A program made the position numbers and the translations under genes. A DNA stretch of 39,148 nt from Candidatus Giovannonibacteria bacterium RIFCSPHIGHO2_12_FULL_44_22 (lineage in GTDB: Bacteria > Patescibacteriota > Minisyncoccia > UBA11713 > 2-01-FULL-45-33): NCBI GenBank assembly GCA_001778695.1, contig MFHU01000009.1, positions 1 to 39,148 on the forward strand, in the 5' to 3' direction. The notes under the pieces were generated by a model. That model had not been told where the DNA came from. It made no database searches and saw only the letters and a program-made list of their open reading frames with translations. This document shows, piece by piece, positions 20,013 to 31,559 of this stretch. Numbering within the stretch: position 1 is the stretch's first letter; each line of letters begins with the position of its first letter.

Positions 20013-20648
20013 ATGAAAATAGATTTTCTTTCGGACATCAATAAGGATAATTATTACGTTCTCGATTACGATCGAGTTGACGCGTATATGGTAAAAACTG
20101 CTTGGTGTAGCTCGGTGTTCCTCGCGCTTTATTCTTGGGCGATATATTTTTGGGCGCCGGCTGCAAGTTATCCAAATCCGTTTTCTTGGCGCGTAGTAAC
20201 ATTCGGCGAAGTTATTTGGGTGACTGCGCTCGGTTTTTTGACGGCCATCGTGATTACAGTTTTCCGCGGCCGCCTCAAGAACCACTATGTATATCGTTTT
20301 ATAGTAACAAACGCGCTAATGGCGTACTCATATCTTGTGGTGTTTATCAGTGGAGGTTCAATTGAATGGCATTTTCATTTTTTTGTGATGCTCGCGCTCA
20401 TTACTCTTTATGCCGATTGGAGGCTGGGCTGGTGGGCGATTATCGCAGTGGCTCTGCATCATAATATTTTAAATTTTATATCTCCAGGTTGGGTGTATTT
20501 TTACGGGCGGAACGATGTAGCGTCCTTAGCCCACGCGTTCCTAGTGTTTTTTATGGCGATTATTACCACGAAGATTTGCGAACAGAACAGGCAGCTCGCG
20601 GATGCCAGCAGGCTTATCGGAAATGAGTTTGATAAGAATACCAAATAA
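20013..20648 (+). CDS. Multi-pass membrane protein resembling a sensor input domain
   Basis: This 211-residue protein has about six membrane segments between residues 30 and 190. The stretch SIEWHFHFFVMLALITLYADW, then AVALHHNILNF, resembles the His-rich membrane input domains (HFHFF, LYxDW, HH) found at the N-termini of bacterial chemoreceptors and diguanylate cyclases. Here the protein ends soon after the last helix (ICEQNRQLADASRLIG) with no output domain. It would therefore act alone or through a partner. It starts 2 nt after polA and precedes the substrate-binding protein cluster, so a role in the same signalling locus is possible but unproven. Confidence 0.7.
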   Translation: MKIDFLSDINKDNYYVLDYDRVDAYMVKTAWCSSVFLALYSWAIYFWAPAASYPNPFSWRVVTFGEVIWVTALGFLTAIVITVFRGRLKNHYVYRFIVTNALMAYSYLVVFISGGSIEWHFHFFVMLALITLYADWRLGWWAIIAVALHHNILNFISPGWVYFYGRNDVASLAHAFLVFFMAIITTKICEQNRQLADASRLIGNEFDKNTK

Positions 20649-20665
20649 CGTTTTATCGCATACAA

Positions 20666-21271
20666 ATGAATCAATTTCTTGAATATTGCAAAAAAATTTT
20701 AGCAAAGGCGAAAAATAAGTTTTGGTTAAAGGAAATTCCTGCTACGGACATCACAGAAGTTTTTTTATATCTAGCGGATTTAATAGTAATCAAACACGGA
20801 AATGAGCCAATTCGCGAAGATATTCGCAAGATTATTTCTCTTAAAGATCTTGCGCCTCCAGCGCGGGAAAGCGCCACGGAAGAAATATATATACATTTCG
20901 AAAATATTCTGTCAAAGGATTATAATATGGCAAAAGTACAAAGCGAAATTCGCGCGCGATTTAATCTTAATCTTTCCAAACTGTCGTTTGTCAGTAAATT
21001 TTTAACTAGAGACGAACGCGACCTTAGAGAACTTGAAAATCGGACGGAGGCGATCGTTACGAAATTGCTGCCAGTTATGGGGCGCGCCAACCTTGATAAG
21101 TTGATTAGAGATAAAACAAGCGTCACTCTTCTTAATGGAATCGCGCTAACCAATCAGGGCTCGCTTGATTTTTCTGCGGTTGAGCGCCGTTTATTCAACC
21201 TTCCTCCGCCTTGGTTAAAGCTTGGTATAAAGTTTTTGAGGTTGCTGATTCGAGATTTGAGTATGCTATAA
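20666..21271 (+). CDS. Unknown helical protein upstream of the SBP cluster
   Basis: This 201-residue protein appears all-alpha and charged, with no signal peptide. It starts MNQFLEYCKKILAKAKNKFW; the middle has IHFENILSKDYNMAKVQSEI and the end is FNLPPPWLKLGIKFLRLLIR. No family was recognised. It follows the sensor-like membrane gene by 17 nt. Its stop codon (TAA 21269-21271) lies inside the -10 box of the first substrate-binding protein gene. It may be a cytoplasmic partner of the membrane gene before it; this rests on position only. Confidence 0.65.
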   Translation: MNQFLEYCKKILAKAKNKFWLKEIPATDITEVFLYLADLIVIKHGNEPIREDIRKIISLKDLAPPARESATEEIYIHFENILSKDYNMAKVQSEIRARFNLNLSKLSFVSKFLTRDERDLRELENRTEAIVTKLLPVMGRANLDKLIRDKTSVTLLNGIALTNQGSLDFSAVERRLFNLPPPWLKLGIKFLRLLIRDLSML

Positions 21272-21272
21272 T
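21267..21272 (+). promoter_or_regulatory. -10 box of the SBP-kinase operon (leaderless type)
   Basis: TATAAT ends 6 nt before the ATG at 21279 and overlaps the stop codon of the preceding gene. Confidence 0.6.
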
Positions 21273-21278
21273 TATAAC

Positions 21279-22289
21279 ATGAGCAATAAATCACTTATGA
21301 CCACGTTGGCGCTTTTTCTTGTAATTGGAGGCGTGTCTGCCTATTTCTTGTATAACAACGCGCTTCCTAAGCCCAAAATCGTTGTTCCTAAGCGCATAGT
21401 TGTGCTTTTAGCCTCCGATTTGCAGATAACTGGCGTAGAGGGTTTAAGGGCCGGCTTAAAGGATCTAGGCTATATTGAAGGGGAGAATATAGTATTTGAA
21501 GTCAAAAATCCAAAGGGAGATAGAGATCTTACCAAAACAATGGCTAAAGAGATTATTGCTTCAAAGCCAGATCTTATTATTTCGCTTTCTACGAGCGCGT
21601 CCAGCGCAGTCAAAGATGCCAACAAAGACGCGGCGCTCCCGATCGTATTTGCCGATGTTGGAAATTTTCAGGAACTTGGCATAGAAAATATTCAGCGCCC
21701 CGGTGGGTTTATAACCGGCGTGGTTGTGGATAACGTGCCTGCCGCGCCAAAACGGATGGATATTCTAAAAATCCTTTTACCCGGCATAAAGAGCGTTGGT
21801 ATTTTAGTGAACAATAAACACGTAAGTTACAATGAAATTTTAAAAACGCACGAGGAGGGCGCGAAAAAACTCGGAATAAAAATTCTTTGGTATAATGTAA
21901 CCAAAAAAGAAGAAGTTCCGCCCGCCATGGAAAACTTAATTAAAGATCGTCCCGGCGCTTTTATGACGACTTCCGAAGCAACCATTTCTGGTAACGCGGA
22001 TTTAATCGCGCCAATTTTGCGGAAGGCCAAAATTCCGTCTATAGATTTTAACCTTGAACGCGGTGTGAGCTCCGGTTATTTTATGGTTTACGGAGTTGCC
22101 AGGTTCGACACGGGCAAGCAAAGCGCGATAATGGCAGACAAAGTGTTAAAAGGCGAACAACCAGGCAATATTCCGATAGAATTTGATTCTTCTTTAAAAT
22201 TTGAAATCAACGCCGCTTTGGCGAAAGAAATGAATATCAAAATACCCGATTCGCTTCTTTTACAAGCCAATAAAGTTTATCAAGAATAA
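21279..22289 (+). CDS. Substrate-binding protein 1 (ABC_sub_bind/TrpX-like)
   Basis: This 336-residue periplasmic-binding-fold protein has an uncleaved-looking N-terminal helix (residues 7-26) and no lipobox cysteine. Typical family segments follow: GLRAGLKDLGYIEGENIVFE, IIASKPDLIISLSTSAS and DNVPAAPKRMDILKILLPGI, with the end LLLQANKVYQE. It is the first of four tandem paralogues; there is no ABC permease or ATPase in the locus. The family binds small ligands such as amino acids in TrpXYZ systems. The ligand here cannot be read from sequence. It is the most divergent of the four. A leaderless promoter precedes it. Confidence 0.88.
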   Translation: MSNKSLMTTLALFLVIGGVSAYFLYNNALPKPKIVVPKRIVVLLASDLQITGVEGLRAGLKDLGYIEGENIVFEVKNPKGDRDLTKTMAKEIIASKPDLIISLSTSASSAVKDANKDAALPIVFADVGNFQELGIENIQRPGGFITGVVVDNVPAAPKRMDILKILLPGIKSVGILVNNKHVSYNEILKTHEEGAKKLGIKILWYNVTKKEEVPPAMENLIKDRPGAFMTTSEATISGNADLIAPILRKAKIPSIDFNLERGVSSGYFMVYGVARFDTGKQSAIMADKVLKGEQPGNIPIEFDSSLKFEINAALAKEMNIKIPDSLLLQANKVYQE

Positions 22290-22293
22290 TTAT

Positions 22294-23328
22294 ATGAGTC
22301 TAAAAAAAGCAATTATAGTATTCTCGGCGGCACTAATATTAGTGACTGGGTTTATATTTTTCCAGTATACATATAACCAAACTAACGTAGAGCCACTTCG
22401 CAAGTATAAGATTGGTATTATTATTAACAACGATGTGCAGATGCCTAATGTTGATGGCTTTAAGTCAAAAATGAAGGAGCTTGGCTACATTGATGGCGCG
22501 AATACCGAGTATATTATCAAAAACGCGCAAAATAAGCCGGATCTACAGATTAAATATCCAGAGGAAATTATTGCCGCTAAGTCAGACATGATAGTAGTTT
22601 TATCGCCAGCCGTTGCAGTTAATTTAAGTAAGCAAAATCCCAGCGTACCCGTGCTATTTATGGATATAGATCCCGAAACGCTCATTAAAGACAAGGCTTA
22701 TCCGGAGAAAAATATCACAGGAGTTTCCGCTGGGTTTTTGGATTTTGCCGGCAAAAGGGTGGAGGTGCTTAAAGAAATTTATCCTTCTATTAAAAAAATT
22801 ATAATTCCATCGGATAAAAATCATCCTAATTATCCTAAATTTATAGAAAGTGTACGCGCGGCGGCGAGTCGCTTACAGATCGAAATAGTCGAAATTCAGA
22901 CCAAAGACATAGGAGATTTTCTAAGCCGCCTTCCAGAAATTGTTAATAAAAAGAACGGCGACGCCTTGATATTTTATCCCGGTCCTAACAACATTTCGGC
23001 TGCGGGCGGAGCAGCAAACGCTCCAAAAAGAAAACTTATTGTGGATCAATTGATAAAAGAAAAGATGCCTGCGATTAATCATAATATGGAAATCGGTTGC
23101 GCTAGCGAAGGCGTTTTGGCGTGCTACGGAAACTACCGCGTTGACGTAGGCAAAGAGGGCGCAATTTTGGCCGATAAAATTTTGAAAGGCGTACCGATAA
23201 AGGATATACCAGTGGTCCCGCCAGTCAAAACTCTTGTCTTGGAAATAAATCTGAAAACCGCGAAAAGTATAGGCATCACGATTCCACAAGCAATTTTATC
23301 CAGGGCTAACAAAGTTTATCAAGAATAA
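22294..23328 (+). CDS. Substrate-binding protein 2 (ABC_sub_bind/TrpX-like)
   Basis: This 344-residue paralogue starts 4 nt after SBP1. An N-terminal membrane helix lies at about residues 5-25, followed by KYKIGIIINNDVQMPNVDGF, MKELGYIDGANTEYI and FAGKRVEVLKEIYPSIKK. The C-terminal 20 residues (GITIPQAILSRANKVYQE) are identical to those of SBP3. The hinge region carries YPGPNN where SBP3 and SBP4 have CxC, so ligand specificity probably differs. It should sit outside the cell, tethered by the helix. Confidence 0.88.
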   Translation: MSLKKAIIVFSAALILVTGFIFFQYTYNQTNVEPLRKYKIGIIINNDVQMPNVDGFKSKMKELGYIDGANTEYIIKNAQNKPDLQIKYPEEIIAAKSDMIVVLSPAVAVNLSKQNPSVPVLFMDIDPETLIKDKAYPEKNITGVSAGFLDFAGKRVEVLKEIYPSIKKIIIPSDKNHPNYPKFIESVRAAASRLQIEIVEIQTKDIGDFLSRLPEIVNKKNGDALIFYPGPNNISAAGGAANAPKRKLIVDQLIKEKMPAINHNMEIGCASEGVLACYGNYRVDVGKEGAILADKILKGVPIKDIPVVPPVKTLVLEINLKTAKSIGITIPQAILSRANKVYQE

Positions 23329-23496
23329 TTATTAGTTTAATTTATTAATTTATTAATTTATGAATTTTACGCTCAAACAGGCAATTTTCACGGTGTTGGC
23401 GGCAATTATTATCGTTGGCGGATATTTTTCTTGGCAATTTATTTCCAAGGAAACCCAGCCGACCGCGCCGCCAAAAAATTATAAAATAGGATTTTT
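23269..23496 (+). repeat. Direct repeat, copy 1 (SBP2 tail to SBP3 head)
   Basis: This 228-bp unit is repeated at 24332-24567 with three substitutions, all synonymous, and one 8-bp insertion. It covers the last codons of one SBP, the spacer and the first 45 codons of the next. Confidence 0.93.
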
Positions 23497-24391
23497 AGCT
23501 TTAAGCGATAAAGACGTCCAAAGCGAAAACTATATAGCATTTAAAGCGCACATGGGAAAGCTTGGTTACGTAGAAGGTAAAAATGTAGAATATATTGTAA
23601 AACAGGGCGATAGAAATATAAAAGGCGACCTTGAAAAGAGCGCCAAAGAACTTAATGAATCAGGGTTAGACCTGATCTTGACCGGCGGCACAACCTCCAC
23701 CGTTCCGCTGAAGGAATTAAAAGATCTAAAAACCTCGGTCTATTTTCTTTCGGCCGCAAGGCCAGAATTGGTGGTTGGCAACCTTGCCGCGCCGGAAGGG
23801 TTGATAACAGGCATATCCGAAGGGGTTGTTTCACTGGCAGGCAAACGCTTGGAATTTTTGAAAGAGATCGACCCTTCGATAAAAAAAGTAGCATCTATTA
23901 TTGAAAAAGGGCACACGACTGCCGCCGCAGCGCAGGCAAAGATCGATGCCGCCGCGCAAGAATTGGGGATAAAAACCGTGGCCATTGAAATAGAGGCCGG
24001 TAAATATGAGCAGATTTTTGAAAAGCTAAAGACAATAACAAGGGCAAACGGAATAGACGGGTATATTGCATGCACGTGCTTAAGCAACGAGAAATATGCA
24101 AAGGAACTGGCGGACTATTTTCGTAAAGAAAAAATTCCGTCTATCAATGCTGAAGTAGGCATAGGAGCTAAACTTGGATGGTTGGCAACCTATTCCAATA
24201 ACAGGACCAGAACAGGCGAACTGGCGGCTGAAAGCGTGGATAGAATCTTAAAAGGAACTCCAATCTCGCAAATTCCGGTTAAATTTGCCAGCGATGTTCT
24301 ATTCGAGCTCAATCTCAAAACGGCCAAAGAAATAGGCATCACGATTCCACAAGCAATTTTATCCAGGGCTAACAAAGTTTATCAAGAATAA
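23360..24391 (+). CDS. Substrate-binding protein 3 (ABC_sub_bind/TrpX-like)
   Basis: This 343-residue paralogue has an N-terminal anchor (residues 7-28: AIFTVLAAIIIVGGYFSWQF) identical to SBP4. It continues YKIGFLALSDKDVQ, MGKLGYVEGKNVEYI and LAGKRLEFLKEIDPSIKK, and a CTCLSNEKYAKELADYF segment parallels SBP4. No cysteine lies where a lipoprotein needs one, so the helix is the tether. The near-identity of its head to SBP4 and its tail to SBP2 points to duplication by unequal crossing-over. Confidence 0.9.
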   Translation: MNFTLKQAIFTVLAAIIIVGGYFSWQFISKETQPTAPPKNYKIGFLALSDKDVQSENYIAFKAHMGKLGYVEGKNVEYIVKQGDRNIKGDLEKSAKELNESGLDLILTGGTTSTVPLKELKDLKTSVYFLSAARPELVVGNLAAPEGLITGISEGVVSLAGKRLEFLKEIDPSIKKVASIIEKGHTTAAAAQAKIDAAAQELGIKTVAIEIEAGKYEQIFEKLKTITRANGIDGYIACTCLSNEKYAKELADYFRKEKIPSINAEVGIGAKLGWLATYSNNRTRTGELAAESVDRILKGTPISQIPVKFASDVLFELNLKTAKEIGITIPQAILSRANKVYQE

Positions 24392-24567
24392 TTATTAGTT
24401 TAATTTATTAATTTATTAATTTATGAATTTATGAATTTTACGCTCAAACAGGCAATTTTCACAGTGTTGGCAGCAATTATTATCGTCGGCGGATATTTTT
24501 CTTGGCAATTTATTTCCAAGGAAACCCAGCCGACCGCGCCGCCAAAAAATTATAAAATAGGATTTTT
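24332..24567 (+). repeat. Direct repeat, copy 2 (SBP3 tail to SBP4 head)
   Basis: This copy matches 23269-23496 but carries an extra GAATTTAT before SBP4. The insertion creates a three-codon mini-ORF (ATG at 24423) whose TGA overlaps the SBP4 start as ATGA. Confidence 0.93.
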
Positions 24568-25453
24568 GGTTCTCACGGAGAAAGACGCTCAAAACGAGAA
24601 TTTTAATGGGTTCAAGTCGCAAATGGGAAAACTCGGCTATAAAGAAGGAGTAAATATTGAATATATTATGAAGATAGCAACCAGAGATCCGGGCGCGTTA
24701 GATAAGGCGGCCGCGGAAGCAAACGAAGCCGGGTGGGATATTATACTTGTTGGCTCTACATCGGCCGGCGAGGCATTGAAAAAATTGCCGGATCTGAAAA
24801 CCAAAGTTTTCTTCTTAGCCGCGGGAAGGCCAAAAGCGCTGGTTGAAAATTTTGTTGCGCCTGAAGGGCTTATTACTGGGATGGGAGAGCCCACCGCGGA
24901 GTTCGCGGGGAAGCGGCTTGAGTTTCTAAAAGAACTTATTCCTTCTCTTAAAAAAATTGTTTCTATTGTAGACCGCGGGCACGCAACAGGGTTGGCTTTT
25001 GTAAAATCTATGGAAGCCGCGGCGGCTCCTCTAGGTCTTAAAATAGAAATTATTACGGCGGAGAATCCGGGCGACTTGGTAAATAAAATCCCTTTAATTA
25101 AAAGAGACGGAGGCACGGTTGCTTATGTGGCTTGCTCTTGCCCGAGCAACACCCAGCATCCCAAAGAGCTTGCTGATTATTTTCTCAAAAATAAAATGCC
25201 GTCAATCAGCGACGAAGTAGAGATCGGAGCGAGAATAGGCTGGCTTGCTACTTATAGCAATGACCGCAGAAAGGCCGGAGAACGAGGCGCCGTATTAGTT
25301 GACCGGATTTTAAAAGGTACGCCAATTTCTAAAGTACCGGTGGAGATTGCAAACGATGTGTTGTTGGAAATAAATTTAAACACTGCCAAAACGCTGGGAA
25401 TTACTTTCCCTCAATCTGTTCTTTCTCGGGCGAACAAAATATATCAGGAGTAA
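24431..25453 (+). CDS. Substrate-binding protein 4 (ABC_sub_bind/TrpX-like)
   Basis: This 340-residue paralogue has the same anchor as SBP3. After residue about 45 the sequences diverge (FLVLTEKDAQNENFNGF; CSCPSNTQHPKELADYF; VEIGARIGWLATYSNDRR). It ends six nucleotides before the histidine kinase start. This placement next to the kinase makes it the likeliest direct partner of the Cache domain, an inference from order only. The binding cleft residues differ from SBP3 in the N-lobe. Confidence 0.9.
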   Translation: MNFTLKQAIFTVLAAIIIVGGYFSWQFISKETQPTAPPKNYKIGFLVLTEKDAQNENFNGFKSQMGKLGYKEGVNIEYIMKIATRDPGALDKAAAEANEAGWDIILVGSTSAGEALKKLPDLKTKVFFLAAGRPKALVENFVAPEGLITGMGEPTAEFAGKRLEFLKELIPSLKKIVSIVDRGHATGLAFVKSMEAAAAPLGLKIEIITAENPGDLVNKIPLIKRDGGTVAYVACSCPSNTQHPKELADYFLKNKMPSISDEVEIGARIGWLATYSNDRRKAGERGAVLVDRILKGTPISKVPVEIANDVLLEINLNTAKTLGITFPQSVLSRANKIYQE

Positions 25454-25459
25454 AAACAA

Positions 25460-27544
25460 ATGAGAAGCTTTTCGGAGTTCTCCATAGCTAAACGCTCTCA
25501 ATTATGGTTTCTAGGAGTAGTGGCTGTTTTGACTATAGTTTCCGCCAATATTGCTTGGCTTTTTCCCACGCGCGATGAGCTGTCGGAACAAGCGTATTTA
25601 TTGCACCGAGTGATAGCTATTGATGTTAAGAATCAGTTATTCGCGTTTTTAAGCCGTTATGAACGATCCTTGAGCGACGGAGTGGATGTGCTTAATCAAA
25701 TCAAAGAAAGAAAAGAAGATATTATTTCGCGTTTGCTAAAAGAAAACCAGCCGTTCGAATCCTTAACTCTTTTAGATAACAAAGGCAATGAGGTATTTAA
25801 AAACCACAGGTTCCTCTTGATTTCGGAATCAGACTTGAAAGACCGCTCCGAAGAAATTTTGTACAAAACTGTCAAAGAAGGCCGCGTTTATCGCGGTCCC
25901 GTAGAGATATCCGGCATTTCCGAACCCATTATAACTATCGCCGTGCCCGTAAATACAAATACGGGTTTTTCGGCGCTAGTGGCGGAGATTAATTTAAAAT
26001 TTTTTTTAGACGTAGTGCGCAATGTGTCGGTTGGCAAAGAGGGCGTGGCTTATGTAGTTGACGAGAACGGGTATGTTATAGCGCACCCGAATTCTTCACT
26101 GGTGTTTGGCCGCGCGAATTTTATTGATAGAAAAATTATTGCTGAAGCGGTTTCTGGGCGCGAGGCGGATACGCGGGCGGCGGGTTTTAATTATACGAAC
26201 GAAAGGGGTGAAAATATGCTTGCCGTGGCATTGCCTTTTGAGCTTATGGGTTGGGCCATAGTCGTTGAAGATCCTGATAGCGCGGCATTGGGCGCGTCTA
26301 GCAGGATATTGAATGTGGCGATCATATCTTTTATTTTGGAAATTTTACTTGTTATTCTGCTTATTTGGAACTATTTAAATCTTATCCGCGCCGCCGCGCT
26401 TTTTTACGGTGAAAGAAATCAGCGCGAAGCTATTTTAAACAGCCTCTCGGATGGAGTCATTGAATATGACAGCGAATTCCAGATCGTGCTTATGAATCCC
26501 AGGGCCGAGGAGCTTTTAGCCGTTCATTTTAAGGATATCGGCGGTATGGCCATAACTCCTGATTTTGCCAAAAACAATCCGCAGTATAAAAGCTTGGTGG
26601 AACTTATGTATCCGGCTTTGGCGCCATATTCTTCCAGCATCAAAGAAGTTCCGGGTACTCATGTTAAAACCATGGAAATTCACACATCAAGTCCGGAGCT
26701 AAAAATGATTGTGACTTTGACCCAGGTTATTGACCAAAACGGGAGCGTAAGGGGTTTTTTGAAAATTTTGCACGACATTTCCAGAGAGCGCCTTTTGGGT
26801 AGAATTAAATCTGAATTTGTCTCTATCGCCGCCCATCAATTACGGACGCCGCTTTCCGCGATTAAATGGACATTGAAACTGCTTTTGGACGGAGATGCCG
26901 GCGCCTTAAACAAAGAGCAGACGAGTTTTTTGGAAAGAGGCTATGATACCAATGAAAAGATGATCAAGCTAGTAAACGACCTGCTTTCGGTGGCGCGCAT
27001 TGAAGAAGGAAGATTTGGCTATGATTTTCAGGATATAAATTTTAATGAATTTTTGGAAGCCGCCATCAAAAATTACGCGGATATCGTAAGCCGCAAATCC
27101 ATAAATCTTAAATTTGAAAAAATAGACGGCGAGTTGCCCTTGGTTTACGCGGATTCGGAAAAATTATCTTTAGCCCTGAATAATTTATTGGACAATGCCG
27201 TAAAATATACGCCCGCTGGGGGAAAAGTCTTGGTAAAACTTGAGCGAAAAGGAAATTACGCGCTGGTGAGCATCATGGATACGGGAGTTGGCATACCTGA
27301 TTCTGAACAGCCGAGAGTTTTTTCAAAATTTTTCCGCGCGTCCAATGTTATAAAGATGGAAACGGAAGGCACCGGTCTGGGACTTTTTATCGTGCATAAT
27401 ATTATCAAGCGCCACGGCGGAGATATTCATTTTACTTCCCATGAAAATCATGGCGCGACTTTTATTTTCACTTTACCGCTTAAAAAAGAACTTGTGCCCA
27501 AGGAGGAAGCTGAGCCCTTGGAGGAATTTTTAGAAAATGTTTAA
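25460..27544 (+). CDS. Cache-PAS sensor histidine kinase
   Basis: This 694-residue kinase has TM1 at about 13-32, then an extracellular dCache-like region of about 250 residues (LTLLDNKGNEVFKNHR; GVAYVVDENGYVIAHPN) and TM2 at about 285-307. A PAS domain follows directly, without an obvious HAMP (ILNSLSDGVIEYDSEFQIVLMN). The HisKA box AAHQLRTPLSAIKW has phospho-acceptor H459. The ATPase domain shows N box LNNLLDNAVKYTPAGG, G1 DTGVGIPD and G2 GTGLGLFIVHNI. It is co-transcribed with four substrate-binding proteins, a pairing known from LuxPQ- and TorTS-type systems. The likely target is the regulator at 27562. Confidence 0.95.
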   Translation: MRSFSEFSIAKRSQLWFLGVVAVLTIVSANIAWLFPTRDELSEQAYLLHRVIAIDVKNQLFAFLSRYERSLSDGVDVLNQIKERKEDIISRLLKENQPFESLTLLDNKGNEVFKNHRFLLISESDLKDRSEEILYKTVKEGRVYRGPVEISGISEPIITIAVPVNTNTGFSALVAEINLKFFLDVVRNVSVGKEGVAYVVDENGYVIAHPNSSLVFGRANFIDRKIIAEAVSGREADTRAAGFNYTNERGENMLAVALPFELMGWAIVVEDPDSAALGASSRILNVAIISFILEILLVILLIWNYLNLIRAAALFYGERNQREAILNSLSDGVIEYDSEFQIVLMNPRAEELLAVHFKDIGGMAITPDFAKNNPQYKSLVELMYPALAPYSSSIKEVPGTHVKTMEIHTSSPELKMIVTLTQVIDQNGSVRGFLKILHDISRERLLGRIKSEFVSIAAHQLRTPLSAIKWTLKLLLDGDAGALNKEQTSFLERGYDTNEKMIKLVNDLLSVARIEEGRFGYDFQDINFNEFLEAAIKNYADIVSRKSINLKFEKIDGELPLVYADSEKLSLALNNLLDNAVKYTPAGGKVLVKLERKGNYALVSIMDTGVGIPDSEQPRVFSKFFRASNVIKMETEGTGLGLFIVHNIIKRHGGDIHFTSHENHGATFIFTLPLKKELVPKEEAEPLEEFLENV

Positions 27545-27549
27545 TATGC

Positions 27550-27555
27550 TATAAT
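27550..27555 (+). promoter_or_regulatory. -10 box of the response regulator (leaderless type)
   Basis: TATAAT ends 6 nt before the ATG at 27562 and lies just after the kinase stop codon. The regulator can therefore be expressed apart from the kinase. The -35 is unclear. Confidence 0.55.
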
Positions 27556-27561
27556 AGCGCT

Positions 27562-28428
27562 ATGGCAAGATACAAGATAGTAATAATAGAAGACGAGCCG
27601 GTGCATCTTAATGTAATGAAGGCTAAGCTGGAATATGAGGGTTATGATGTTTTGGCGGCTGTGGACGGGGAAGCCGGCTATCAAATGGTTAAAGAAGAAA
27701 AGCCGGATTTGGTGCTTTTGGATATAATTTTGCCCAAATTAGACGGATTCGGGGTTTTAGAGAGATTGAAAAAAGACAAAATAAACATCCCGATTATAAT
27801 CGTTTCCAACTCGGGTCAGCCAGTGGAAGTGGATAGGGCCATGGCAATGGGCGCGAAAGATTATTTGGTGAAAGCGGAATTCAACCCGACTGATGTTTTG
27901 GAAAAAGTTGAAAAAGTTTTAGGCGGGCCAGCCTCGACTAACGGGCTAGGCGGGCGTCCGAAAAAAAATGGAAATGGAAATGGCGCGAGCCCTTCAGCTA
28001 TTAAAGCGCTCGCGGATAAGGCCGGCGGAGTCAACGAACGCGCGCGCGGAGGAACCAAGGTTTTAATAGTGGAAGATGATAAATTTTTGCGCGACCTCAT
28101 CGTCCAAAAACTTAAAAGAGAGGGTTTTGTGACTTCCGAAGCGGTGGACGGCGAGGAGGGCTTAAAGATTACCAAAGAAAAACATCCCGACATAATTTTA
28201 CTTGATTTAATTTTACCGGGCTCGGACGGCTTTGAGGTTTTGCGCCGAATCAAAAGCGATACTTCCACCGCTCAAATACCTGTTATAGTGCTCTCCAATC
28301 TCGGACAAAAAGAAGATATGGATAGAGCCATGTCCGGGGGCGCGGAGGATTTTATGGTGAAAGCCCATTTCACGCCGGGGGAAATTATCGCAAAAATAAA
28401 GTCAGTGCTTAAAAAAAAGTATTTTTAA
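27562..28428 (+). CDS. Double-receiver response regulator without output domain
   Basis: This 288-residue protein has two CheY-like receivers. Receiver 1 (about 4-120) has IIEDEP, phospho-acceptor D54 in LVLLDIILPKLDG and the lysine in LVKAEF. Receiver 2 (about 168-286) has LIVEDD, D215 in IILLDLILPGSDG and MVKAHF. The linker is Gly/Asn/Pro-rich (about 121-165) and partly encoded by a repeat (27927-27954). No DNA-binding or enzymatic domain exists, so signalling must go by protein contact or phosphotransfer. A pilus link through PilB is conceivable but has no support in position. The holA gene follows after 8 nt. Confidence 0.93.
   Translation: MARYKIVIIEDEPVHLNVMKAKLEYEGYDVLAAVDGEAGYQMVKEEKPDLVLLDIILPKLDGFGVLERLKKDKINIPIIIVSNSGQPVEVDRAMAMGAKDYLVKAEFNPTDVLEKVEKVLGGPASTNGLGGRPKKNGNGNGASPSAIKALADKAGGVNERARGGTKVLIVEDDKFLRDLIVQKLKREGFVTSEAVDGEEGLKITKEKHPDIILLDLILPGSDGFEVLRRIKSDTSTAQIPVIVLSNLGQKEDMDRAMSGGAEDFMVKAHFTPGEIIAKIKSVLKKKYF
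27927..27954 (+). repeat. 28-bp repeat, copy 1 (linker of the double receiver)
   Basis: It begins GCCAGCCTCGACTA and ends AGGCGGG, encoding PASTNGLGG in the inter-receiver linker. It matches 29327-29354 at 26 of 28 positions, with both copies reading in the same direction on the plus strand. Confidence 0.85.
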
Positions 28429-28436
28429 CCTAATCC

Positions 28437-29327
28437 GTGATTTATTTTCTTTACGGAGAAAATTCGTATCAGGCGCTCCGCAAAATCCGCGAATTCAAAT
28501 CGGCTTTTTCCAAAAAATCTGCTGATTTTTTAATAGAAGAGTTCGACGGCGAGTTTTCCGCGCCGGGTCCTGCGGAATTCCATTCTGTTTTGGGCCAGAT
28601 TAATTTTTTTTCCAAAATTCGGCTGGTAATTTTTAGAAATATTTTGGAATCTAATCCCAAAATTTTTGAAATTCTTAAAGAAAGCGGCGTTTTTTTGAAA
28701 AATTCAAATGACATTTTTGTTTTTTGGGAGAAAGATTTAACGAAGCATAAAGAAGTTTTATCGTTTTTTAAAAAATTCGCGGAAAAAACACAGGAAGTGA
28801 AAACGCTTGGTCCGAAAGAGCTGGACGCTTGGCTTTCAAAAAAAGCGCAAAGCTCGGAAATTCAATTAAGCAAAGAAGAGCGCGAGGTAATGATTGAGGA
28901 AGCGGGCGAGGGCGCCGAGTGGGCGCTGGAGAACGAGTTGGAAAAGGTGGCGTTGGGCGCGCCAGCCGGGAAGAAGTCGCTAGCCTCCTCGAAGTCCGAC
29001 TTCAAATCCCCAAAGAAGTCGGACTTCTTCCCGGCTAGCGACTTCAAAGAAGGCGCTTCTCCCTTTTCTTTCATCGAAAAAATGTTCACCCCCACACCAA
29101 ACCTTTTGGTGTGGGGGTTTAGCCCAAGAGCGCTTTTGGCTCTCAAAGAAATGAGTTTAATCGGCATTGAGCCACAAAAATTCATCTACGCTTTTTTATG
29201 GAAATTGAAACAAAAAAAAATGGCGGATGCTTATCTTAAGGGCATACTTGCGGAATCCCAAATGCGCAGAGACCCTAAAAACTCCGAAGAACATTTGGAG
29301 CGATTTATTTTTTCCCTGAAAGCTTAG
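28437..29327 (+). CDS. holA: DNA polymerase III delta subunit (clamp loader), element-bearing
   Basis: This 296-residue HolA-type protein starts MIYFLYGENSYQALRKI, with a GTG start codon. LENELEKVAL and LFxxL-type helices in the C-terminal domain match the clamp-opening subunit. Delta binds the sliding clamp (dnaN here) and opens it. Two foreign-looking stretches interrupt it in frame. Residues about 175-203 (AGKKSLASSKSDFKSPKKS) come from an 85-bp palindromic element that also occurs in uvrB. Residues about 218-227 (TPTPNLLVWG) come from a 13-bp-stem hairpin. Both lie near the boundary of the helical domains. Identity is fairly secure from the N-terminus and position. Confidence 0.82.
   Translation: MIYFLYGENSYQALRKIREFKSAFSKKSADFLIEEFDGEFSAPGPAEFHSVLGQINFFSKIRLVIFRNILESNPKIFEILKESGVFLKNSNDIFVFWEKDLTKHKEVLSFFKKFAEKTQEVKTLGPKELDAWLSKKAQSSEIQLSKEEREVMIEEAGEGAEWALENELEKVALGAPAGKKSLASSKSDFKSPKKSDFFPASDFKEGASPFSFIEKMFTPTPNLLVWGFSPRALLALKEMSLIGIEPQKFIYAFLWKLKQKKMADAYLKGILAESQMRRDPKNSEEHLERFIFSLKA
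28961..29045. repeat. KKSDFF palindromic element, copy 1 (in holA)
   Basis: Inner arms GAAGTCCGACTTC (28991-29003) and GAAGTCGGACTTC (29015-29027) pair around an 11-nt loop. An outer pair, GAAGTCGCTAGCC (28973-28985) with GGCTAGCGACTTC (29033-29045), pairs around it. The core 28985-29037 matches the uvrB copy. The plus strand reads SKSDFKSPKKSDFFPA; the opposite strand is also open. Confidence 0.93.
29089..29117. repeat. 13-bp-stem hairpin in holA
   Basis: CCCCCACACCAAA (29089-29101) and TTTGGTGTGGGGG (29105-29117) are perfect arms around CCT. It encodes TPTPNLLVWG. A stem this stable inside a coding region is unusual. Confidence 0.9.
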
Positions 29328-29579: not shown

Positions 29580-31559
29580 TTATTTTATATTTTTAATCAA
29601 ATCCCTAAGTTCTGCCGCCTTTTCAAAATCCAGCGTTTTCGCGGCTTCCAGCATTTCTTCTTCCAATTCCTGTTTTAGTTTTTCTTTGGACATGGACTTG
29701 GACATTTTGGTCAAATCAAATTTTATTTTCTTTTCCGAAGTGCCGAAAATGTTTTCGTTGATTTCTCTGACAATCTGTTGGGGCGTGATGCCGTGTTTTT
29801 TATTAAATTCATCCTGCAAAACTCTCCGGCGGTCAGTTTCGGAAATAGCTTTTTTCATAGAGAGGGTCACCGCGTCGGCATACATTATAACTGTCCCGTG
29901 GGTATGCCTGGCGGCTCGGCCGATTGTTTGAATTAAAGTTTGCGCGTTCCGCAAAAATCCTTCCTTATCGGCGTCTAAAATTATAACCAAAGAAACCTCT
30001 GGCAGGTCAATACCTTCTCTTAAAAGATTTATTCCCACAATCACGTCATAATGTCCGCTTCTTAAATCATTTATAATTTTATGCCGCTCCAAAGTTTTAA
30101 TGTCCGAATGCAAGTATTCGGCTTTTATGCCAGCTTCTTTTAAATAGTCGGCTAAGTCCTCCGCCATGCGCTTAGTAAGGGTTGTGATAATAACTCGCTG
30201 TTTTTCTTTTATTCTTTTTTTAACTTCAGAAATTACGTCTTTGATTTGATTTTTTGTGTTCCGCACTTCCACTTTCGGGTCCAAAAGGCCGGTGGGCCGG
30301 ATTATTTGCTCCACCACCGCGCTTCCGCTTATTCGAAGTTCGTATTCAGCCGGAGTCGCCGAAACGTAAACAGTTTGCCCAACTTTTTTTAGAAACTCGC
30401 CAAATTTTAAAGGACGGTTATCCATGGCCGACGGAAGCCTGAAGCCATAATCCACTAAAACTTTTTTTCTAGCCTGGTCGCCCATGTACATACCGCGGAT
30501 TTGGGGAATAGACATATGCGATTCGTCAATAATCGTAATAAAATCTTTTGGAAGATAATCCAAAAGAGTCGCGGGTGGCTCGCCGGATTTTCTGAATGAA
30601 AGCTGGCGCGAATAATTTTCTATTCCGTGGGTGTAGCCGGTTTCTTTTAGCATTTTTAAATCAAAATTTGTGCGTTGGGAAATTCGTTGGGCTTCCAAAA
30701 GCTTTCCCTCTTTCTTTAATTCTACCGCGCGGCTTTTTGATTCCAGTTCAATATTAGAAAGCGCGAGTTCAAGCTTATCATGCGGCGTGACGAAATGTTT
30801 GGCAGGAAAGATTTTTGCCGCGCCAGCCTCCTCGAAGTCCGACTTCAAATCCCCAAAGAAGTCGGACTTCTTCCCGGCTGGCGCTATTTCCGATATCTTC
30901 TCAATTCGGTTTCCATCCCATTCAATCCTGATAACCGAATTTCCTGATGGCGCGACGATTTCAACCGCTTCTCCTCTTGCCGAAAAAGTTCCTTGGCGCT
31001 TGTCGTAATCATTTCTTTCATATTGCATTTGGACTAATTTTCTTAAAAACATCCGTTGCGCGATGGCAGTACCTTTGCGAATTTCCAAAGAAGCTTTTTC
31101 ATATTCTTCTGGGTCGCCAATGCCGTAGATACAAGAAACGGAAGCCACAATTATAAAATCCCTCCGCGTTAGCGCCGTCGCGGTAGTGGCGTGGCGCATT
31201 GCGTCAATAAAAGTATTGATTTTAGCGTCCTTTTCTATATAAGTGTCGGTTTGCGGAATATAAGCTTCGGGCTGGTAATAATCGTAATAAGAAACAAAAT
31301 AATGCACGGCGTTTTCTGGAAAAAAAGTTTTAAATTCCTGATAAAGCTGGGCGGCTAGAGTTTTATTATGCGATATTACTAAGGCCGGGCGGCCTAAATT
31401 GGCGATGACATTCGCTATCGTAAAAGTTTTACCGGAACCGGTGACGCCCAAAAGCGTCTGGTTTTTATTTTCGGCTTTCAACAACTTGGAAAGCTCGGCA
31501 ATCGCCTTCGGCTGGTCTCCGGCGGGCTGGTATGGTTGGTAAAGTTTAAATATTGACAT
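29580..31559 (-). CDS. uvrB: Excinuclease ABC subunit B, element-bearing
   Basis: This 659-residue DEAD-like helicase is the damage-verification subunit of nucleotide excision repair. Walker A is GVTGSGKTFTIANVI. The beta-hairpin region is YYDYYQPEAYIPQTDTYIEK. Helicase motifs include IIDESHMSIPQIRGMY, ITTLTKRMAEDL and QTIGRAARH, and the C-terminal UVR motif ends AAELRDLIKNIK. Residues about 225-247 (APAGKKSDFFGDLKSDFEEA) replace the usual short loop between ISEI and the IFPAKHFVTP strand. They come from the same palindromic element found in holA, read from the other strand. The loop is surface-exposed in known UvrB, so activity should survive. Confidence 0.97.
   Translation of the reverse strand: MSIFKLYQPYQPAGDQPKAIAELSKLLKAENKNQTLLGVTGSGKTFTIANVIANLGRPALVISHNKTLAAQLYQEFKTFFPENAVHYFVSYYDYYQPEAYIPQTDTYIEKDAKINTFIDAMRHATTATALTRRDFIIVASVSCIYGIGDPEEYEKASLEIRKGTAIAQRMFLRKLVQMQYERNDYDKRQGTFSARGEAVEIVAPSGNSVIRIEWDGNRIEKISEIAPAGKKSDFFGDLKSDFEEAGAAKIFPAKHFVTPHDKLELALSNIELESKSRAVELKKEGKLLEAQRISQRTNFDLKMLKETGYTHGIENYSRQLSFRKSGEPPATLLDYLPKDFITIIDESHMSIPQIRGMYMGDQARKKVLVDYGFRLPSAMDNRPLKFGEFLKKVGQTVYVSATPAEYELRISGSAVVEQIIRPTGLLDPKVEVRNTKNQIKDVISEVKKRIKEKQRVIITTLTKRMAEDLADYLKEAGIKAEYLHSDIKTLERHKIINDLRSGHYDVIVGINLLREGIDLPEVSLVIILDADKEGFLRNAQTLIQTIGRAARHTHGTVIMYADAVTLSMKKAISETDRRRVLQDEFNKKHGITPQQIVREINENIFGTSEKKIKFDLTKMSKSMSKEKLKQELEEEMLEAAKTLDFEKAAELRDLIKNIK
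30820..30884. repeat. KKSDFF palindromic element, copy 2 (in uvrB)
   Basis: Outer arms GCGCCAGCC (30820-30828) and GGCTGGCGC (30876-30884) enclose inner arms 30834-30846 and 30858-30870. The loop AAATCCCCAAA is identical to copy 1. On the minus strand it reads AGKKSDFFGDLKSDFEEAGA. Confidence 0.93.

Follow-up and report, generated by a model that had tools for sequence, protein, structure and literature searches.

By the prevailing view, Patescibacteria live on other microbes, and the ways in which they locate or recognise these hosts are largely open. A locus in the genome of a Candidatus Giovannonibacteria bacterium (643,010 bases, 17 contigs) raises the question of what four substrate-binding proteins might do when their genes run directly into that of a histidine kinase. 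The window analysed here is a whole stretch of 39,148 nucleotides on contig C9 of this genome; the genomes used for comparison are given as G numbers.

The locus and its relatives

The gene order is polA, S211, H201, SBP1-4, HK, RR2 and holA. The eight ORFs from S211 to RR2 all lie on the + strand, with gaps of 2-39 nt between them, and form one tight co-directional run:

20013..20648, + strand: S211, a membrane protein weakly like chemoreceptor membrane domains
20666..21271, + strand: H201, the partner of S211, function unassigned; a 45% homologue adjoins the S211 homologue in G009
21279..22289, + strand: SBP1, S1 type, core receptor, tethered ABC_sub_bind protein (PF04392, 6.8e-46; tree and identities)
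22294..23328, + strand: SBP2, S2 type, tethered ABC_sub_bind protein (PF04392, 1.6e-32; the S2 clade holds G009, G007 and G002 members)
23360..24391, + strand: SBP3, tethered ABC_sub_bind protein (PF04392, 7.3e-22)
24431..25453, + strand: SBP4, tethered ABC_sub_bind protein (PF04392, 8.9e-27), with an anchor near-identical to that of SBP3 and a divergent core
25460..27544, + strand: HK, histidine kinase with TM1, dCache_1, TM2, PAS, HisKA and HATPase_c (Pfam)
27562..28428, + strand: RR2, two complete receiver domains and a Gly/Asn/Lys-rich linker (Pfam 5.5e-52, two stretches; conserved in relatives)

The first-pass annotation had claimed four tandem ABC_sub_bind genes running into a dCache-PAS kinase gene and a two-receiver gene, with no permease or ATPase in the cluster. 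The ORFs and the Pfam searches confirmed this arrangement, and neither a permease nor an ATPase was found among the ORFs there. SBP1-4 belong to the ABC_sub_bind family (PF04392) with 78-157 bits against a gathering cut-off of 25.9, and they are the only four PF04392 proteins in the source genome. Each carries a single hydrophobic stretch at its N terminus (KD 1.9-2.4 over 19 residues). A lipobox was sought in all four and was not found, the first 45 residues being without Cys; hydrophobicity and the lipobox check thus bear out the membrane helix that had been proposed in its place.

The catalytic residues of HK are intact (H459 and the N, G1 and G2 boxes). The R-x-W-Y motif is typical of the amino-acid-binding dCache domain (dCache_1AA); it is absent from HK, which by this mark does not fall within that family. 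Both receivers of RR2 have the Asp/Ser/Lys active-site residues, and a Pfam search for an output domain in this protein found only the two Response_reg domains. The output-less double receiver is therefore real. It is not peculiar to the locus, since all receiver matches in the source genome are output-less and sit in frames of 126-304 codons; across ten family genomes, only one receiver lies in a long open frame (1,074 codons).

The two upstream genes had been described as encoding a sensor-like membrane protein and a helical protein. The ORFs are real, and no Pfam family was found for either product. They look separate from the array: the pair is missing from most relatives' loci, where the arrays mostly begin directly 3' of polA, and the sole S211 homologue among 285 class genomes lies in G009, next to a homologue of H201 on a contig other than that of the array. 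S211 and H201 were set aside as array components on these grounds and are probably a separate module.

A palindromic element of ~63 nt, which we take to resemble the Rickettsia palindromic elements, occurs in at least seven places in this genome. Two are in the window, at 28973-29045 (holA) and 30821-30883 (uvrB), and five more are at C5:10351, C1:5500, C11:6789, C3:29209 and C5:8892. Six ORFs were examined (holA, uvrB, uvrA-like, small membrane protein, cysteine-desulfurase-like and valS-like); in each, the reading frame runs through the element, whichever way it is oriented, and yields KSDFKSPKKSDFF- or KSDFFGDLKSDF-like peptides.

The same gene order was looked for in relatives, and the unit of SBP, HK and RR2 proved to be conserved. 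In Candidatus Giovannonibacteria, 11 HK-RR2 loci were found, and at least one binding protein is encoded next to every one of them. The pairing of an SBP gene with that of a kinase whose sensor domain is extracytoplasmic is thus conserved across relatives. The number of ABC_sub_bind genes per locus is four in the window, G003, G005 and G009, three in G007, two in G002, one in G001, G004, G008 and G056, and zero in G006; gene calls beyond the window are mechanical ORFs, and several of the relatives' assemblies are fragmented. A further array, truncated, lies on a separate contig of G009 and is probably from another strain. At the G006 locus, an NMT1-like binding protein is encoded 3' of RR2 instead. 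NMT1-like proteins also occur in G001, G002, G004 and G056, together with a kinase-less dCache-PAS protein, a copy of HK that stops just before the kinase core. The G056 unit (SBP1, HK, RR2, three NMT1-like genes and dCache/PAS) lies outside the polA/holA neighbourhood, and therefore its genes travel together.

HK shares 49-74% full-length identity with eight Giovannonibacteria kinases. Its best matches in named genomes come from Candidatus Giovannonibacteria, a Parcubacteria bin and one bin named only 'bacterium', and in a pattern-limited scan the long orthologue matches were confined to the Candidatus Giovannonibacteria group. PF04392 is present in 8 of 9 family relatives versus 2 of 45 other class members. 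Of 378 other genomes in the phylum sample, 1 (G103) has it too, as a partial, contig-edge sequence whose start is Tat-like and which may be contamination. In G035 (L052, 7538-12427), ABC_sub_bind, kinase and double receiver genes lie together with that of a FIST-domain protein. Phrase searches on patescibacterial SBP-kinase systems and on ABC_sub_bind with histidine kinase returned nothing usable from a literature in which few subscription papers were covered.

A proposed receptor unit and its output

The reading that we favour, with a probability of about 0.6, is that SBP1-4 form a multi-receptor unit on one dCache kinase that signals to RR2, most plausibly with a pilus output and with a modular receptor set. 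The support for this sensory reading is sequence-based throughout. The four tethered SBPs would sample extracellular small molecules and, once closed on their ligands, would dock on the dCache domain of the single membrane HK. HK would phosphorylate RR2, which has no DNA-binding domain and so would act through contact with a protein partner; gene neighbourhood makes the type IV pilus machinery the most plausible one. Accessory SBP cores would be gained, lost and exchanged, and anchors would be kept alike within a genome. We infer SBP-HK contact, signalling by all four SBPs and ligand diversity. Neighbouring SBP and kinase genes do not by themselves imply coupling: in a study of AgtS and AruS of P. 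aeruginosa (PMC11113362), no binding to either kinase was seen for the SBPs encoded nearby.

The output is the part of this scheme with the strongest competitor. The unit could operate as proposed and end elsewhere than at the pilus, with RR2 as a phosphate sink or directed to some other target, and this has an appreciable chance of being right, if short of an even one. It would suit the position of RR2 itself, which is outside the pilus operons, and two receivers without a phosphotransfer domain could serve as a sink. Receivers placed within pilus operons argue in the other direction: in operon A, a receiver gene lies between those of PilB- and PilT-like ATPases in the source genome and the relatives mapped, and in operon B one lies 3' of HK318, before the second PilB gene, in the source genome and most relatives mapped. 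The same direction is indicated by the distant class relative G033 (L053, 1172-16378), where ABC_sub_bind, a HAMP protein, a Peripla_BP_6 binding protein, a kinase and two receivers are encoded directly 3' of pilus genes. Pili matter in the host contact of Saccharibacteria, and a 2025 study of their pili names the control of pilus extension and retraction among the questions still to be answered (PMC12206443). A phrase search on pili and response regulators in the candidate phyla radiation, which covered few subscription papers, gave nothing usable.

Receptor types, anchors and cores

In characterised ABC_sub_bind relatives, the aromatic side chain of the ligand is lined by one Tyr or Gln (PMC6816091). 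SBP1-4 and every array SBP compared have Arg at that specificity position. Aromatic amino acids, at least in the customary binding mode, are thus unlikely ligands. The suggestion of a multi-ligand input gained indirect support from pocket motifs that vary by receptor type and are kept within each type across genera. A C-x-C motif is conserved in the S3 and S4 types (window 23360-25453), in a loop where characterised relatives have Asp-Asn; metal or redox sensing through it is possible. A second ABC_sub_bind subfamily has Tyr at the specificity position (L040 8219-9217, L046 9775-10767 and L112 1381-2370); in G001 and G004 it is encoded near a pilus operon, with no adjoining kinase gene.

It may be asked whether all four proteins address the kinase. 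The S1 type is the sole ABC_sub_bind protein at the single-SBP loci of G001, G004 and G008, and it is the only type that is near-universal among the relatives' arrays, SBP2-4 varying from genome to genome. These observations would fit a system in which only SBP1 feeds HK and SBP2-4 have other roles, as decoys, adhesins or partners of other proteins. We regard this as unlikely, as R275, together with an inserted G262 and E309 that the outgroups lack, is common to 26 of the 26 array SBPs compared, of every type, and the accessory types sit between SBP1 and HK with the same anchors within a genome.

What is new, as far as sequence comparison can tell, is that the receptor array on the single kinase is modular. 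Accessory receptors share their anchor DNA within a genome and their ligand-binding core by type across genera. Over the first 46 codons of 12 accessory SBPs, anchor DNA is 84.7% identical within a genome versus 58.3% between genomes (p = 0.0002 in a permutation test that takes related genes as independent labels, without correction for kinship, and treats as a single genome the two contigs of G009, which probably come from different strains). The core DNA of the same proteins shows no genome effect (54.7% within versus 56.8% between), and that of the tails a weaker one (71.7% versus 63.3%, p = 0.005). Same-type cores are 81-90% DNA-identical between genera. The core of SBP3 is 87-90% identical to its copies in G009 and G003, two other family genomes, and its third-codon identity to G009 is 78% versus 38-51% for the neighbouring genes compared.

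A junction repeat is present in two copies, one at either end of the SBP3 gene:

23298..23496, + strand: junction repeat copy 1, comprising the SBP2 end, spacer and SBP3 anchor; weaker similarity back to about 23234
24361..24567, + strand: junction repeat copy 2, comprising the SBP3 end, spacer and SBP4 anchor; weaker similarity back to about 24297

These copies, of 199 and 207 nt, are identical at 196 of 199 aligned positions (98%), with one 8-nt indel in addition. Related junction repeats are found in four other arrays, and a repeat search found none in the G005 or G002 arrays. Cores probably recombine at these repeats while anchors stay alike within the genome. A more far-reaching version is tentative and, on balance, doubtful: the array might be a cassette system, in which cores are swapped between lineages by recombination at anchor-bearing repeats, letting a host-seeking patescibacterium re-tune one kinase, with the kinase-less receptor copies as aids in relatives, to steer type IV pili.

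Importers, known systems and the meaning of the array

A cognate ABC permease or ATPase encoded elsewhere, co-occurring with the SBPs and not with the kinase, had been named as evidence against the sensory reading, and the search for a permease covered two permease families, BPD_transp_1 and BPD_transp_2. No BPD_transp_2 match was found in the source genome and eleven others (12 searched), and no BPD_transp_1 match in ten family genomes including the source; control genomes gave matches in both searches. An importer was rejected on the basis of these two families, and the missing permease and the conserved SBP-HK-RR2 unit together support the earlier claim that the SBPs are coupled to a kinase. 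That they instead supply nutrients to a permease from some other family or a divergent one, the kinase adjacency being secondary, is quite improbable: PF04392 members typically serve ABC importers, and patescibacteria must take in most building blocks, but the family genomes gave no match to either permease family and the SBPs stay with the kinase, not a transporter, at 11 of 11 loci.

The array SBPs are of the same family and, by sequence, the same fold as TrpX, CD0873 and VC_1101; they differ in being tethered by a helix and not by lipid, in having no permease or ATPase and in carrying Arg for Tyr/Gln (four of four in SBP1-4). A TrpX-type importer is further disfavoured by the NCBIfam equivalog scores, which are 76.6-130 bits for SBP1-4 (130 for SBP1) against a cut-off of 390, and no cognate BPD_transp_2 permease was found in the genome. 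In transporter-type relatives, such as the Salinivibrio and Pseudomonas plasmid loci, the ABC_sub_bind gene precedes those of a permease and an ATPase. In Rhizobium ruizarguesonis, an ABC_sub_bind gene overlaps that of a dCache-HAMP adenylate cyclase. In such Rhizobium plasmid pairs, too, a member of the array's SBP family is encoded next to a dCache receptor, and no importer adjoins; the pairs differ from the array in having a single SBP, a cyclase output and no R275/E309 signature.

LuxP-LuxQ and TorT-TorS each combine a binding protein with a sensor kinase that has a periplasmic domain, and the array shares with them the neighbouring genes for a binding protein and a membrane kinase whose sensor domain is extracytoplasmic. 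It differs in having several tethered paralogues per kinase and in the lack of hybrid receiver and phosphotransfer domains in HK, which scores far under the NCBIfam cut-offs for LuxQ (123 versus 1200) and TorS (131 versus 676.5). In chemoreceptors such as Trg and McpC of B. subtilis, several binding proteins converge on one receptor; there the binding proteins work with importers as well, and the receptor signals to CheA. Several binding proteins per receptor are likewise proposed for the array, whereas its receptor is itself a kinase and no importer was found.

If the proposed reading is true, the importer-free multi-receptor kinase unit would be a concrete sensory input for Patescibacteria. 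The pattern of anchors and cores would show how a two-component system changes its ligand range, with receptor cores being swapped and one kinase being kept.
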